From Kribbella amoyensis (GTDB taxonomy: Bacteria; Actinomycetota; Actinomycetes; Propionibacteriales; Kribbellaceae), in assembly GCF_007828865.1 (NCBI RefSeq), contig NZ_VIVK01000001.1, forward strand, positions 1,488,001 through 1,552,000: DNA of 64,000 nt, read 5' to 3'. The translations under genes were made by a program, and so were the position numbers. This document shows, piece after piece, positions 2,089-9,773 of the stretch. Numbering within the stretch: position 1 is the first letter of the stretch; every line of letters begins with the position of its first letter. Below the pieces are notes generated by a model. It made no database searches, was not told where the DNA came from, and was given only the letters and a program-made list of their open reading frames with translations.

Positions 2089-3102
2089 ATGGCCACCACG
2101 TCCGCGCCCGCGGTCCGGCCCGACCTGGCGGCGCACCAGCCGTCGGCGGCGATGATCTGGACGGCGCTCGCCGTCGTCTACGTGGTCTGGGGGTCGACGT
2201 ACCTGGCGATCCGGATCGTCGTCGAGGCACAGATCCCGCCGATGCTCGGGATGGCGGCCCGGTTCCTGATCGCGGCGACGCTGCTGGCGACGTTCCTCGT
2301 GGTCCGGTCCGGCGGGCGCCGGCTCCGGGTGACCCGGAGCGAGTTGCTGGGCGCGGGGACGGTCGGGCTGCTGCTGCTTGCCCTTGGCAACGGTGCGGTC
2401 GCGGTCGCCGAACAGACGGTGCCGTCCGGTCTGGCCGCCCTGCTGGTCGCCGCGGTCCCGCTGTGGCTGATGCTGCTGCGCGTCGGCGGCGGTGAACGGC
2501 CGCGACTGCTGACCTGGGCCGGCGTGCTGATCGGGTTCGGCGGCGCGGCCCTGTTGTCCGTCTCCGGCGGCGACACCAGCGCGAAGCCGCTGTCGGTCGG
2601 GATCCTGGTGCTCGGCACCATCTGCTGGGCGATCGGGTCCCGGTTCTCGCCCCGGCTCGGCCTGCCGAAGGACCCGCTGGTGGCGACCGTCTACGAGATG
2701 GCGATCGGCGGCGCCGCGATGGTGCTGATCGGCGTCCTCCGCGGCGAGCCCGGCCGGCTCCACCTCGGCGCGGTGGACACGAAGGGCTGGTTCGCGCTCG
2801 CGTACCTGGTCGGCTTCGGCTCGCTGATCGCGTACTCCGCCTACACGTACCTGCTGGCGAACGCGCCGATCTCGCTGATCGGCACCTACGCGTACGTGAA
2901 TCCGGCGGTCGCCGTCTTCCTCGGCTGGCTGATCCTGGACGAGCACGTCACCGCGAAGATCCTGCTCGGCGGCGCGGTCGTCGTCCTCGGCGTCGCGCTG
3001 GTCGTCAGCGCGGAACGCCGGCCTCGCGCGGCCGCGGTCCCGGCTGACCCGGCCCCACCGGATCCCGCCGTCCCCCCGGCGCCACCTGCTGCCGACCGCT
3101 GA
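2089..3102 (+). CDS. EamA/DMT-superfamily transporter (RhaT/YedA-like)
   Basis: This 337-residue protein is an integral membrane carrier with about ten helices arranged as two EamA repeats. The first repeat starts at about residue 20 (WTALAVVYVVWGSTYLAIRIV) and the second at about residue 165. The VYVVWGSTYLAIR signature is typical of DMT exporters. The substrate is unknown; relatives export amino acids or metabolites. The tail (about 315-337) is proline- and alanine-rich and cytoplasmic. The ATG at 2089 follows GAGGGG. It is monocistronic, and a strong hairpin at 3203-3248 lies beyond its stop. Confidence 0.85.
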   Translation: MATTSAPAVRPDLAAHQPSAAMIWTALAVVYVVWGSTYLAIRIVVEAQIPPMLGMAARFLIAATLLATFLVVRSGGRRLRVTRSELLGAGTVGLLLLALGNGAVAVAEQTVPSGLAALLVAAVPLWLMLLRVGGGERPRLLTWAGVLIGFGGAALLSVSGGDTSAKPLSVGILVLGTICWAIGSRFSPRLGLPKDPLVATVYEMAIGGAAMVLIGVLRGEPGRLHLGAVDTKGWFALAYLVGFGSLIAYSAYTYLLANAPISLIGTYAYVNPAVAVFLGWLILDEHVTAKILLGGAVVVLGVALVVSAERRPRAAAVPADPAPPDPAVPPAPPAADR

Positions 3103-3202
3103 TCCGGTCCGGCCGAGCATCCTCCGACGCCGGTGACCACCGGGCGGGCAGGTGAACAACCACGAGGCCGGGCCCTGCGGTGCGCCGGCCTCCGGGGAAC
3201 GC

Positions 3203-3248
3203 GAAACGGCATCGGGAAGGAGTGAGGCGTACTTCCCGATGCCGCTTC
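3203..3248. terminator. Long inverted repeat between convergent genes
   Basis: A 17-bp stem (3203-3219 with 3232-3248, one mismatch) encloses a 12-base loop. It lies between the convergent EamA gene (ends 3102) and the rodlin-like gene (ends 3349), so it probably serves as a bidirectional terminator. There is no T-tract on either side, which is common for actinobacterial terminators. Confidence 0.6.
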
Positions 3249-3348
3249 AATGGTGCTACCGAGTCAATCGCCCCACCGAGGCGACATCTCCGGGTCCTGC
3301 ATCACTGACCAAGGGAGGAGGTCAGCGAGCATCGAACCGACCTGAAGG

Positions 3349-3933
3349 TCAGTTGTTCTCGGACTCCAGCTCGCAGGTCTCCAGCGAGTTGACCGCGTTG
3401 GCGTTCTGGTCCAGACCCAGCAGGCCGGTCAGGTTGCTGATCGGCACCTGGCCACCGACACCGTTCACCGGGATGGTGTTGTGGCAGGCCTGGAACGGGC
3501 CGACCGAGTTGCCGGAGACGGAGACGAGGCCGTCCTCGCCGATCCGGTGCCACTTGGCGCCGTTGTTCTCCGAGTCGGTCTCGCAGGTCTTGACCGCGGT
3601 GGCCTCGTTGCCGTTCTGGTCGATCCCGACGATCGCGGTGATGTCGTTGATCGGCACCTGGCCGCCGACGCCGTTGACCGGAACGAAGTTGTGGCAGGCC
3701 TGGAACGGGCCGATGGCGTTGTCGTCAACGGCAACGAGCGAGCCGTTGTCGCGGACCCAGTACCAGTCCTTGCCACCCATGTTGTAGGCCTTGCTGGCCA
3801 CGGACGCCGCGTCGGCCAGGCCGGCCTGGGACGTGGTGTCGTCGATCATGTTCGCGCTGACGACGGTGGCCAGGCCCAGCGTCGCGACGGTCGCCACGGC
3901 CGCGGCAGCGGCGATCTTGCGAGTTACCTGCAT
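3349..3933 (-). CDS. Secreted two-repeat, rodlin/chaplin-like surface protein
   Basis: This 194-residue exported protein of unknown function has a signal peptide at 1-27 (ends VVSA) and then two tandem repeats of about 70 residues. Each repeat carries GPFQACHN, PVNGVGGQVPI, a DQNxN element and a Cys before an acidic SENN end, giving four cysteines in all. The layout of short hydrophobic VPI segments between paired cysteines recalls rodlins and chaplins of the streptomycete aerial surface, but the sequence is not a clear member of either family. The ATG at 3933 has AAAGGA upstream and is preceded by a BldN-type promoter. It is monocistronic. Confidence 0.7.
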   Translation of the reverse strand: MQVTRKIAAAAAVATVATLGLATVVSANMIDDTTSQAGLADAASVASKAYNMGGKDWYWVRDNGSLVAVDDNAIGPFQACHNFVPVNGVGGQVPINDITAIVGIDQNGNEATAVKTCETDSENNGAKWHRIGEDGLVSVSGNSVGPFQACHNTIPVNGVGGQVPISNLTGLLGLDQNANAVNSLETCELESENN

Positions 3934-3976
3934 TATGCGAGGTTTCCTTTCGGGTTTGACGGATTCGTCTTAGGGG

Positions 3977-4004
3977 CTAACGACAGGTGCGGTAGCGGGT
4001 TACA
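3977..4004 (-). promoter_or_regulatory. BldN-type ECF sigma promoter
   Basis: Read on the minus strand the sequence is TGTAAC, 16 bases, CGTTAG. It closely matches the streptomycete sigma-BldN consensus (CGTAAC, 16 bases, CGTTGA), whose known targets include chaplin and rodlin genes. The start point would fall near 3970, leaving a leader of about 37 bases before the ATG at 3933. Confidence 0.55.
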
Positions 4005-4363
4005 AAATTCGTCGGCGATTTTTTCTGGCCGGGATGATTCCCGCTCACGGCCGAGGTGACGCCCACCGAGTTCGCTGACTCGGCAGCAACATGCCTCTGA
4101 CCAGGCAACTTCTCGGTGGCTGAGACCGCAGGAAGGCCAGCCGCCCGCGCGGGAAAGTGTTTTCAGGCAAGCCGTAACTCGTCCGCGACTTCCTCGTTGT
4201 CTGATCGCAGGAGACGGATGGTCCGATGATTCGGTGATATTTCGGTGGGCTCGGTGGCCGCCGAATCGGTAATATGAAGATGAGTCGGAATGTCATTGCA
4301 ACACAACCGGGATATTCGCGCCGTGTTTTTTCGGGGCACGGCGCGTGACCGGTCACTCAAGAC

Positions 4364-4430
4364 CCGCTGCCGCGCGCATCGGCAGCGGTGGGAGACCCGG
4401 GCACCCCATGGGAGCCCGGGTCTTTCCTTT
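4364..4430 (+). terminator. Tandem hairpins ending in a T-rich tail
   Basis: A 9-bp perfect stem (4364-4372 with 4380-4388) is followed by a 10-bp perfect stem (4393-4402 with 4414-4423, 11-base loop). The second runs directly into TTCCTTT on the plus strand, which is the form of an intrinsic terminator. The minus strand has no T-tract. Confidence 0.55.
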
Positions 4431-4450
4431 GCCCGGACCGGGTGATTGCC

Positions 4451-4510
4451 CGGACCGGTGGCCGCGCGGACCGGTGGCCGCGCGGACCGGCGGCCGCGCG
4501 AACCGGCGGT
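4451..4510. repeat. 16-bp tandem repeat, about four copies
   Basis: The unit cggaccggtggccgcg occurs at 4451-4466 and 4467-4482, with one change at 4483-4498, and as a partial degenerate copy running into the stop codon of the SDR gene. The unit is not a multiple of three and lies just downstream of that gene on its strand. A diverged copy (cccggaccggg) lies upstream at about 4432. Confidence 0.75.
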
Positions 4511-5226
4511 CAGAAGTCGCGCAGGTCGATCGTGCTGCCGGAGTCCAGGTCGCGGTCCAGCAGGGACCACAGCCCGCGGGCGGCCTGGCCGGGACTGACC
4601 AGGCGGCCGGACCGGTCGAGGTCGCGGAATCGCTCGACGGCCGGAAAGGCGCGCTCGTCGACCTTGCGGATCTCGGCCTGCATGGCGGTGTCCACGACGC
4701 CGGGCGCCACCGAGAGCACCCGGCAGCCGTTCGGCTCGGCACCGACGGTGCGCACCCACTGCTCCACGGCCGCCTTGCCGCCGTTGTACGCCGACCAGCC
4801 CGGGTACGGGTTCTTCGCGGCGCCGGACGACAGCAGGATCAGGTGCTTCTCGCAGTCCAGCCCCGCGGTCGCGCGGAGGAAGGCGGCGCCGAGGACCTGG
4901 GGCGCGGCCGAGTTCAGCAGGATCGCCCGGGCGTACTCCGCGCTGTCGACCTGGTCGGCCGGGCCGATCGGGACGATGGTGCCCGCGTTGTGCACGAACA
5001 CCACCCGCTCCCCCGCGAACCCGGCCAGGGCCTCACCGAAGTGCCGCTCCACCCGAGCCCATTCGGCCGGGTCCGCCAGGTCGGCGGCGAAGTGCTCCAC
5101 CGAACTTCCGGCTGGGGTCGGCCGGCGGGAGATGCCGATGATCCGGGTGTCCTCGGCCGGGATCGCGGCGGCCAGCGCGGCGCCGATCCCGGCCGAGGCG
5201 CCCGAGATCCAGACCAGCGACTTCAC
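4510..5226 (-). CDS. SDR-family oxidoreductase (sepiapterin-reductase-like)
   Basis: This 238-residue classical short-chain dehydrogenase has the NAD(P)-binding glycine motif GASAGIGAA near the N-terminus, NAG at about 80, a catalytic Ser in [10 protein letters not shown] and the YNGGK form of YxxxK at about 145. [11 protein letters not shown] follows the active site. The basic SRR after the second strand favours NADPH. It begins with GTG at 5226 inside a GTGA overlap with the stop of the aminotransferase, so the two are translationally coupled. Substrate is unknown; the compact C-terminus resembles sepiapterin reductase and YueD-like enzymes. Confidence 0.82.
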
Positions 5227-7367: not shown

Positions 7368-7988
7368 TCAGCCGGTGAAGCCGGGCGCGTTCTGGTAGAC
7401 GATCTCGAGCTTGCTCGGGTCGTACCCGTGACCGACCAGCCACTCCTGGGACTTCTTCCGGCCCTCGGAGTCGCTGAGCTTGATGATGAACGCGAGCGTC
7501 TCGGGATCGTCCTTGGACTTGCGTGACGCGCCGTAGTTCACCGTGAAGCCAGGCCCGACGTACGGCAACTCCTGCAGGATCGGGTACTTCCGCTGGATCC
7601 GCTTGTTCTGCTCGTCGAACTTGCGGCCGCCCTCGGCCTCGGTCTCCAGCACCTGGTCCGGGTGGTTCTTCTCCCACTCCCGGCCGGCTGGTCCGTTCGA
7701 GAACAGGAACATCTTCACGGCGACGTCACCTCGCACGTTCACGGTCTGGGTATGGGTCTCGAACCCGTCCCGCTCGCCGACCAGGGTGTGCTCGCCGGAC
7801 TTGAGCTTGAGGTCGCCGTTCGGGTCGACCTTGACGCCGTCGACGGTGAGGGTGAGGTCGTTCGGGATCGAGCGCACCCGCACGGTGTGCTCGCCACCGC
7901 CGCGGAAGACCAGGTAGCCGCCGACGAGGACGACCAGGATCACCACGACCACGCCACTGAGCATCCACAGCCGGGGATTCTCATCCAT
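7368..7988 (-). CDS. Membrane-anchored PEGA-like domain protein
   Basis: The 206-residue protein starts with ATG at 7988, overlapping the last eight bases of the upstream hydrolase gene, so the two are coupled. It has a short cytoplasmic start (MDENPRLW), one membrane helix at about 8-30, then an extracytoplasmic PEGA-like beta domain (IPNDLTLTVDGVKV, GEHTLVGERDGFETHT). After about 105 comes a charged region without a recognised family, ending GFTG. PEGA domains usually bind surface polymers. With the hydrolase it may form an envelope-bound pair; the function is unknown. Confidence 0.7.
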   Translation of the reverse strand: MDENPRLWMLSGVVVVILVVLVGGYLVFRGGGEHTVRVRSIPNDLTLTVDGVKVDPNGDLKLKSGEHTLVGERDGFETHTQTVNVRGDVAVKMFLFSNGPAGREWEKNHPDQVLETEAEGGRKFDEQNKRIQRKYPILQELPYVGPGFTVNYGASRKSKDDPETLAFIIKLSDSEGRKKSQEWLVGHGYDPSKLEIVYQNAPGFTG

Positions 7989-9582
7989 CCTGCTCGCCGC
8001 CTCCTGACTGCTTGATCCGAGCGACCGTGAAGCCGTCGAAGTAGACGTTCGTTGCCTCCGGCACGTGTCCGTGCAGCGACGCCGAGGCCGCGTTGTACGT
8101 CTTGCCGTCACCGCCCTTGTAGTTGCCGGTGTAGAGGTAGGTGTGGCCGACCTCACCCCCTTCACTGCCCTTCACCAGGATGTCTCCCGGTCTGAGCTGG
8201 TCGACGTCGGTGATGTTGTCGAAGGTCTCGTACTTCGACGAGGCCCGGACGTACTTGAGCTGCTCGCCGGTGCTGCGCCTCTGGTAGTCCTTGTCCACCC
8301 CGCTCATCACCATCACCGTTGCGACGAAGACCCCGCAGTCGCTGTACGGATCGATGTCGGTGGCGCCGTTGTACTTCGGCATTGCTTCCTGGTACGACGG
8401 TCTGGCGTCGGACCGGTTCTTGCCGTGGCCCGGGGTGTCCCAGGCCAGCCCGAGCGCGGTCTGCACGATGTCGCCGTTGCCCGCGCCGCAGCCGCCACCA
8501 CCGGCACCGCCCTCGCCACCGCCGAAGATCTCCAGCAGCGCACGGGCGGCGGTTTTGCGCTGGATGTACCGCGGGTTGCTCAGGTCCTCCGACCCGGCGA
8601 ACCGCTCGAACCACCGGCCGAAGGCGACCGCCGCGTCCTCAACCGTTTTGGTCGCTCTGAGCTTGGTCCCCGCGTCGGCCTCCGGGAGGGGGCCCTCACC
8701 GGCGAGCTGCTTCTTGAGGAACTCGAGCTGCCACTCCAGCGACTCGACCTTCTTCTCGTCGTCGTTGGTCGCGGCCAGCGACGGCCGGATCATCTTGCCG
8801 GCCGGGGTCCACTGGACGATGCCCCAGCCGAGCGGGGAGTCGATCGCGGCCTTCGCCTTCGTGACCGTCCCGGGCGCGGTGTTCTGCAGCCGGGCCGGCT
8901 CGACGCTCGACTCGTGGATCATGTTGCCGACGATGCCGGCCGCCTGCTCCTTGCTGTAGCCGTTCGAGGCGAAGTAGTTGAACGCCTTCTGCTGGTTGTT
9001 GGAACCGACCAGCGCGCCCTCGCAGCTGCAGCCGGCACTCGCGCTCTCGCTCGCTTCCTCGCCGATCTGGTCGGTCGGGTCCTCCGGCTCGAGGTCGCCG
9101 TCGTCGTCCTTGCGCACCCGCATCTCGAAGTGCAGGTGCTCGCCGTCCAGGCCGGGGCCGTCCTCGGTCCCCGATCCGGACTTGCCGATCTCGGTGCCGC
9201 GCCCGACCTTGTCGCCGACGCGGACCGACTTGGACTCGAAGAACTGGTACCAGGTCTCCAGGCCCTCGCCGTGCCGGATCTTGATCCAGTCGCCGTCGGT
9301 GGAGACGACCTCGCCCTCCTCGGCGGCGCGGACGGTGCTGCCCTTGCTCACCCGGTAGTCGAGGCCGGTGTGCCTGGCCGTTCCCAGCGGGAGGTAGCCC
9401 AAGGCCGGTTCATGCTCGTCGGTCGGCCAGCCGAACGCCTTGCCGGTCGTTTCCGAGGTGTCACACGCCTCCTCGGCACCAGCTGACCCCATCGTGGCGA
9501 ACAGCATCACGACGACGACGATGAACGGCAACAGGAACCCCAGACCGAGTCCACCGAGGAGCGTCACTGACTTGCCTTGCAC
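7981..9582 (-). CDS. Membrane-anchored cell-wall hydrolase: M23, tail-lysozyme-like and CHAP-like domains
   Basis: The 533-residue protein starts at GTG 9582, where GGAGGAGGAA gives an excellent ribosome site. One membrane helix (about 6-30) anchors it outside the membrane. An M23/LytM endopeptidase domain (about 50-155) keeps the zinc ligands H71 and D75 (HTGLD) and H149/H151 (HLH). From about 195 to 370 is a segment resembling the phage tail-lysozyme family (YSKEQAAGIVGNMIHES, GWGIVQWT). A glycine-rich linker leads to a C-terminal CHAP/NlpC-like part with DCGVFVATV and a later His in HTYLYTG. Three hydrolase modules suggest cutting of both peptide and glycan parts of peptidoglycan. The PEGA-like gene follows directly. 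Confidence 0.78.
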   Translation of the reverse strand: MQGKSVTLLGGLGLGFLLPFIVVVVMLFATMGSAGAEEACDTSETTGKAFGWPTDEHEPALGYLPLGTARHTGLDYRVSKGSTVRAAEEGEVVSTDGDWIKIRHGEGLETWYQFFESKSVRVGDKVGRGTEIGKSGSGTEDGPGLDGEHLHFEMRVRKDDDGDLEPEDPTDQIGEEASESASAGCSCEGALVGSNNQQKAFNYFASNGYSKEQAAGIVGNMIHESSVEPARLQNTAPGTVTKAKAAIDSPLGWGIVQWTPAGKMIRPSLAATNDDEKKVESLEWQLEFLKKQLAGEGPLPEADAGTKLRATKTVEDAAVAFGRWFERFAGSEDLSNPRYIQRKTAARALLEIFGGGEGGAGGGGCGAGNGDIVQTALGLAWDTPGHGKNRSDARPSYQEAMPKYNGATDIDPYSDCGVFVATVMVMSGVDKDYQRRSTGEQLKYVRASSKYETFDNITDVDQLRPGDILVKGSEGGEVGHTYLYTGNYKGGDGKTYNAASASLHGHVPEATNVYFDGFTVARIKQSGGGEQDG

Positions 9583-9773
9583 GGCTTCCTCCTCCTGCTG
9601 TCGGCGGCTCTCCCCGGGCGGGTCAGGGAGACGGGCGGCCGTCGACCTGCTGGGAACAGATTGCCCGAAAACCGGCTCACCAGGTCGAAAGTTATCCACA
9701 GGTTGGCCGCCGACCGGGCGAACTCCGGGTGCCGCACGCGACAACGGGGTCCGGCTGGACGAGAATCACCACC

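Follow-up and report, generated by a model that had tools for sequence, protein, structure and literature searches.

A gene for a two-repeat protein and a predicted, unannotated structured RNA stand back to back in Kribbella, each behind a promoter that resembles those read by the sigma factor BldN, and we propose, regarding the case as evenly balanced, that BldN regulates the pair as one module of two transcripts running in opposite directions, which has been seen so far in this genus alone. The proposal comes from comparative sequence analysis. Coordinates refer to the window, i.e., the whole 64,000-nt stretch of Kribbella amoyensis DNA that was analysed, in which the following features were assigned:

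3203..4430, strand not assigned: two-transcript module, from hairpin to hairpin, inverted relative to the EamA neighbour in the window genome
3203..3248, minus strand: hairpin 3' of the protein gene (17-nt arms, 94% complementary), probable terminator and left edge of the inverted block
3349..3933, minus strand: gene for the two-repeat protein (194 aa), with a signal-like start, two repeats of approximately 69 aa and cysteines at residues 80, 117, 150, and 187
3934..3976, minus strand: conserved region at the inferred transcript start and 5' leader with a GAAAGGAA ribosome-binding site
3978..4004, minus strand: BldN-type promoter of the gene, TGTAAC-N16-CGTTA (TGTAAC at 3999-4004, CGTTA at 3978-3982)
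4173..4200, plus strand: divergent BldN-type promoter, CGTAAC-N16-CGTTGT, from a motif scan and kept in 37/37 loci
4207..4430, plus strand: predicted structured RNA of approximately 224 nt, its start placed from the promoter and its end from the terminator
4363..4394, plus strand: invariant 32-nt block with a 9-bp hairpin (CCGCTGCCG / CGGCAGCGG), from RNA alignment A6 (35 sequences)
4393..4430, plus strand: terminator hairpin that ends the divergent RNA, with a T-rich run behind it

The two-repeat protein and its distribution

The earlier note on this DNA had assigned the stretch 3349-4004 to an uncharacterised secreted two-repeat protein family. The gene itself occupies 3349-3933, and the remainder up to 4004 takes in the promoter, but the description of the protein holds: comparison of its two halves gives a BLOSUM62 score of 215, against a maximum of 51 for 1,000 shuffles. 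The repeats are 54% identical, and both contain GPFQACHN, GVGGQVPI, DQN, and a second Cys. The putative signal peptide, read by eye, has RK near the start, an Ala-rich core, and VSA-N. With the cut set by hand at N28, the predicted mature protein has a pI of 4.1, a GRAVY of -0.24, and four Cys, making it acidic rather than hydrophobic. We consider it very probable that the protein is extracellular.

Searches of Pfam, NCBIfam, and named relatives were made with the protein lacking its first Met. Only a chance-like PsaE match (0.27) was obtained in Pfam and no match at E ≤ 10 in NCBIfam. Solved structures, searched with protein alignment A2 (26 of the 37 proteins), gave a best E of 0.57, the best PHROGs match was at 0.33, and tblastn against plasmids returned nothing at E ≤ 1. 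An AlphaFold2 model based on 8 sequences was uninformative (mean pLDDT 31.4).

The gene has one match each in 37 of 38 genomes of the family, the genus being Kribbella, a non-streptomycete, as the earlier note had suggested; the exception is genome G031. The 36 homologues outside the window genome share 53-75% identity with the protein. Of its 7 named relatives, 6 are filed under Kribbella and the seventh under Streptomyces sp. SID13031; this last record has a Kribbella-type locus, and the label is probably wrong. Among 394 genomes sampled from the class, clear relatives besides the window genome occur only in G049 and G072, with three repeats each, while a match in G375 is marginal (E 8.7e-4). 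The G049/G072 proteins (family f15) have a homologous repeat (profile probability 97.9%, E 2.1e-22), but they combine three repeats with acidic linkers where the Kribbella protein has two repeats, their genes neighbour a camelysin-like gene, and the 320 nt upstream hold just a loose AAC-N16-GTT without CGTAAC and CGTT boxes. The three-repeat relatives at loci L061 and L062 belong to another actinobacterial family, and the L062 neighbour matches camelysin (Peptidase_M73).

Comparison with rodlins and chaplins

The protein had also been called rodlin-like, with a profile search against the chaplin and rodlin families suggested as a check. That search was null for rodlins and weak for chaplins, and the label was not borne out. 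A genuine rodlin, as a positive control, matches NCBIfam NF041022 at 2.2e-57; the two-repeat protein gives nothing with this model at E ≤ 10 and reaches a probability of 2.6% over 30 columns against a profile of 15 rodlins. The rodlins were fetched with a bait built from peptides in the available part of PMC5314377, and their alignment (A3) holds 15 of the 18 listed ORFs (L053, L054, and L057 left out), four of them trimmed at the start by hand; L058 and L060 had no rodlin ORF by the pattern used. When a combined repeat profile was compared with rodlins, 24 of 60 column-shuffled rodlin profiles scored at least as high as the real one. With the same bait, the window genome gave no match. The two-repeat protein has no match to the chaplin family PF03777, none of the 12 Kribbella genomes searched has one above the cut-off (two weak matches, 0.025 and 0.069), and 6/6 rodlin-bearing genomes, taken for Streptomyces, do. 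We reject membership of either family on the family and profile searches.

What the protein shares with the rodlins RdlA and RdlB is that it is small, secreted (as predicted here), and acidic, with an AACC-N16-GTT promoter similarly placed before the gene; this motif lies 243-248 nt ahead of a conserved anchor in 15 of the 21 rodlin rows listed, and the scan did not show it in the other 6. Rodlins, however, have one Cys pair rather than two repeats with four Cys, and the Kribbella protein lacks sequence or profile similarity to them and is single-copy in its genome. The likeness to chaplins lies in secretion, a Cys-pair module, and a BldN-type promoter before some chaplin genes: CACAAC-N16-CGTTGA precedes 4 of the 20 chaplin rows listed, with no motif in the scan for the other 16. 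Chaplin cysteines, by contrast, are 18 residues apart versus 37 in the Kribbella protein, and three chaplin cores have GRAVY values of +0.4 to +0.8 versus -0.24.

That the two-repeat protein could nevertheless be a distant rodlin or chaplin strikes us as very unlikely. The common promoter class would fit such an origin, as would the pI of 4.1 and near-zero GRAVY, which are rodlin-like values, and the repeats of the three-repeat relatives from the two other genomes match the chaplin core with 34% probability, none of 60 shuffles scoring as high. This chaplin-like stretch spans just 14 residues, however, and the Kribbella repeats themselves reach 1.5% against chaplins (9/60 shuffles as high) and 0.5% against rodlins, with nothing in Pfam above 0.27 and nothing in NCBIfam.

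Two BldN-type promoters

Excerpts of PMC2375139 give the BldN motif as CGTAACN16CGTTGA. The promoter of the protein gene, approximately 45 nt upstream of the ATG, agrees with it at 9/12 positions in the window (TGTAAC-N16-CGTTAG), departing at three. A BldN-like promoter at this place had been noticed before, and it proves to be kept across the genus: TGTAAC-N16-CGTT precedes the gene in 36 of 37 loci, the sole box variant being a first-base change to AGTAAC in L013. Over the 37 loci, the boxes are 99.5% pairwise identical, compared with 65.9% for the 16-nt spacer, which occurs in 31 distinct forms. Since the bare TGTAAC-N16-CGTT string is not rare (37 matches in 14 Kribbella genomes versus 23 for a reversed control pattern), the weight rests on conservation rather than on the string. 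The start region and leader that follow have a mean pairwise identity of 93.8% (37 loci, gaps counted).

The divergent promoter at 4173, on which the earlier note is silent, is a closer fit to the motif. Eleven box positions are invariant in 37/37 loci and the downstream box ends as CGTTGA in 24 and as CGTTGT in 13, giving a full match to the published motif in 24/37 loci and 11 or 12 of 12 positions in all of them. The spacer is 57.3% identical and occurs in 34 distinct forms. The outer ends of the two -35 boxes are 169 nt apart in the window; the distance between the promoters varies from 71 to 181 nt across loci, and the stretch between them has a mean pairwise identity of 48.5% (37 loci, gaps counted). 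In 10 Kribbella genomes, CGTAAC-N(16,17)-CGTTG gave 76 matches, versus 24 for the control.

Similar sites occur elsewhere. A second intergenic region (L169:1501-1860) has CGTAAC-N16-CGTTG together with hairpins that lead into runs of T; L181 and L185 resemble it downstream, and sites with alike spacers were seen by eye in another five of the 10 scanned Kribbella genomes. This region may hold a further RNA of the regulon. In the three loci read (L162, L188, and L191), CGTAAC-N17-CGTTG lies ahead of an ORF named by eye as an ABC transporter ATPase, and matches with alike spacers are present in 10/10 scanned Kribbella genomes. In four Kribbella genomes (L123, L128, L138, and L146), TGTAAC-N16-CGTT precedes an ORF that by eye is an OmpR-type response regulator.

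The divergent structured RNA

An own promoter, a terminator, and a conserved fold, the marks of a small regulatory RNA, are all predicted from sequence for the divergent unit. The RNA folds with -106.9 kcal/mol (z -3.86), and none of 200 shuffles reached as low an energy. The consensus from alignment A6, which holds all loci but L019 and L035 (35 of the 37) and in which nine sequences were shortened by hand at the 3' end, has 48 pairs with 98.6% of cells paired, and helix 6 does not vary at all. Double changes were observed at 5 pairs in 6 cells, against a shuffled mean of 0.9. Controls with slid partners brought pairing down to 31-50%, although one slide still had 3 double-change pairs in 5 cells. 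Covariation is modest, since large parts of the structure are nearly constant. Across the 37 loci (gaps counted), the RNA has a mean pairwise identity of 79.3%, versus 73.2% for the coding region. We regard a functional RNA as somewhat more likely than not.

No Rfam family reaches its gathering score in the window or in L169, and at E ≤ 1 the region 2900-4700 has three chance-like sub-threshold matches, none overlapping the RNA. A covariance model of the 3' half, built from 30 sequences (A7, 30 of the 37 loci), has one match in the window genome and none at E ≤ 0.01 in the 393 other genomes of the 394-genome sample under Infernal's stricter filters. Pairing of the RNA with the neighbouring leader, the sole target tried, gave a mean z of -0.8 over the 37 loci and so found no support. 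Mechanically called ORFs that start within the RNA unit extend antisense to an SDR gene. Like Ms1, an sRNA of Actinobacteria, the Kribbella RNA is an intergenic structured RNA of an actinobacterium; it differs in having no Rfam match and in flanking genes unlike the Ms1 synteny in the available part of PMC9130861.

The G031 locus and inversion of the block

G031 lacks the two-repeat gene but has unchanged neighbours. A promoter (CGTAAC-N16-CGTTGG at L192:8284) is followed there by an ORF of 511 aa with a signal-like N-terminus (L192:8421-9956), and then by tandem hairpins like those of the RNA unit (94% identity over 71 nt); the whole promoter-ORF-hairpin unit spans L192:8284-10083. Within the ORF, 36 nt can be aligned with part of the RNA (nhmmer E 2.4e-5). 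Family searches with the 511-aa ORF gave weak matches only (0.073 in Pfam and 0.16 in PDB). One promoter-terminator frame thus encloses the RNA unit in the other genomes and a protein gene in G031.

The block is inverted in the window genome, a single assembly, and in none of the other 36 loci, where the gene is co-oriented with EamA. Matches by blastn to other loci stop between 3167 and 3207 on one side, mostly at 3203 or 3207, and between 4427 and 4440 on the other, and no convincing inverted repeats were seen at the ends. Phase variation by inversion was considered and rejected: with no convincing end repeats and 1/37 loci inverted, the inversion more probably reflects an event in one lineage or a mistake in the assembly. 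Elsewhere in the window, positions 7981-9744 (minus strand) encode a protein of 587 aa that combines a phage-tail-lysozyme domain with an M23 peptidase domain.

BldN and RsbN in Kribbella

A genome without a bldN homologue had been named earlier as grounds for dropping the promoter assignment, and an orthologue is present. Each of the 5 Kribbella genomes searched with TIGR02952 has a sigma factor that scores 183-184 bits (182.9 unrounded), below the curated cut-off of 206.45; the next match in the window genome has 65.8 bits. G009 has a second sigma factor at 161.2 bits that is 60% identical to the first and has no rsbN promoter behind it. At E ≤ 1e-15, each of the five genomes has 6 to 9 TIGR02952 matches. 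The Kribbella protein is identical to a Streptomyces-type BldN at 107 of 182 residues (59%), although it is shorter (196 versus 263 aa) and without the long N-terminal part. Convincing BldN matches are described in excerpts of PMC4255298 as having well over 50% identity and local synteny. The gene order in the window genome is hemA, rex, a ligase-like ORF, HAD hydrolase, sigma, DUF5667 protein, and acyltransferase, and in a Streptomyces-type genome it is rex, HAD hydrolase, sigma, DUF5667, and acyltransferase; Pfam backs Rex, HemA, sigma, and DUF5667, while the HAD hydrolase, ligase, and acyltransferase were named by eye. A promoter CGTAAC-N17-CGTTG(T) precedes rsbN in 3/3 Streptomyces-type genomes, and CGTAAC-N17-CGTT does so in the 5/5 Kribbella genomes read. 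By identity, shared gene order, and neighbour, the sequences identify the Kribbella sigma factor as the BldN orthologue and the DUF5667 protein next to it as RsbN-like. G031 has BldN even though it is without the two-repeat gene.

Discussion

We think it likely, going by the promoters and the sigma factor, that BldN controls at least one of the two promoters, and we would still lean towards its controlling both. Since both resemble BldN-read promoters, Kribbella appears to share the Streptomyces switch while giving it another output. Targets of sigma-BldN and RsbN in Streptomyces include bldM, chaplins, rodlins, and rsbN, according to the available parts of PMC4125116 and PMC4255298. Kribbella has syntenic orthologues of both regulators and the same rsbN promoter boxes, but no chaplin above the cut-off in 12 genomes and no rodlin in the window genome, and has the two-repeat protein and the RNA instead. 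In the mechanism that we envisage, sigma-BldN would be released from the RsbN-like anti-sigma factor during development and would transcribe both divergent units. The two-repeat protein would be exported by Sec, a disulfide loop would close between the two Cys of each repeat, and the protein would join the sheath or matrix of the developing hyphae, in the place that chaplins and rodlins hold in Streptomyces; such a structural sheath role is a tentative suggestion, somewhat short of an even case. The divergent RNA would act as a developmental regulatory RNA.

An AAC box followed after 16-17 nt by CGTT is shared by many ECF promoters, and sigma specificity is the chief doubt about the module: another ECF sigma factor, be it one that answers envelope or oxidative stress or the paralogue in G009 that resembles BldN, might read both promoters as part of a stress regulon rather than of development. 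Each of the five genomes has the 6 to 9 TIGR02952 matches given above, and similar sites precede ORFs that by eye are OmpR-type response regulators, CAP-like proteins, other secreted proteins, and ABC ATPases in several genomes. We nevertheless judge this unlikely, because the divergent promoter is the published BldN motif itself in 24/37 loci and because the same boxes precede Kribbella rsbN, where autoregulation would be expected.

The nature of the divergent transcript has to be weighed separately. The G031 locus, where a like promoter and terminator hairpins enclose the 511-aa ORF and part of the RNA aligns inside it, raises the prospect that the transcript is the remnant of a coding unit kept in G031 and deleted elsewhere, although an insertion rather than a loss may have taken place. 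A mere remnant would not be expected at 79% identity, above that of the coding gene, and the 32-nt block that is unchanged in all 35 aligned sequences and the 98.6% pairing speak against it as well, which leaves this account improbable in our view. A small peptide encoded by this conserved RNA is scarcely credible: the longest ORF wholly inside the window RNA has 24 codons, but L010, L038, and L045 have no ORF of at least 14 codons (ATG or GTG start) within the RNA, and the indels in the alignment are not multiples of three. A bolder combination, which we offer as a speculation that we doubt ourselves, is that a BldN-driven, genus-specific regulatory RNA has the promoter type and the terminator that also frame the mRNA for a secreted protein of 511 aa, which G031 alone has at this locus, that this protein gene either gave rise to the RNA or took over from it, and that the two-repeat protein took the place of chaplins and rodlins.

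BldN is known as the switch for the hydrophobic sheath of Streptomyces. The available parts of the Kribbella literature on rodlins, BldN, small RNA, and aerial mycelium, sporulation, or bld describe neither the gene nor the RNA. Where no chaplin was found above the cut-off, as in Kribbella, a BldN-RsbN pair in conserved gene order raises the question of what the switch is for. The locus offers two candidates that are conserved and open to testing, the RNA having the promoter with the better motif match, and through them the ancestral role of BldN may become approachable in a soil genus.
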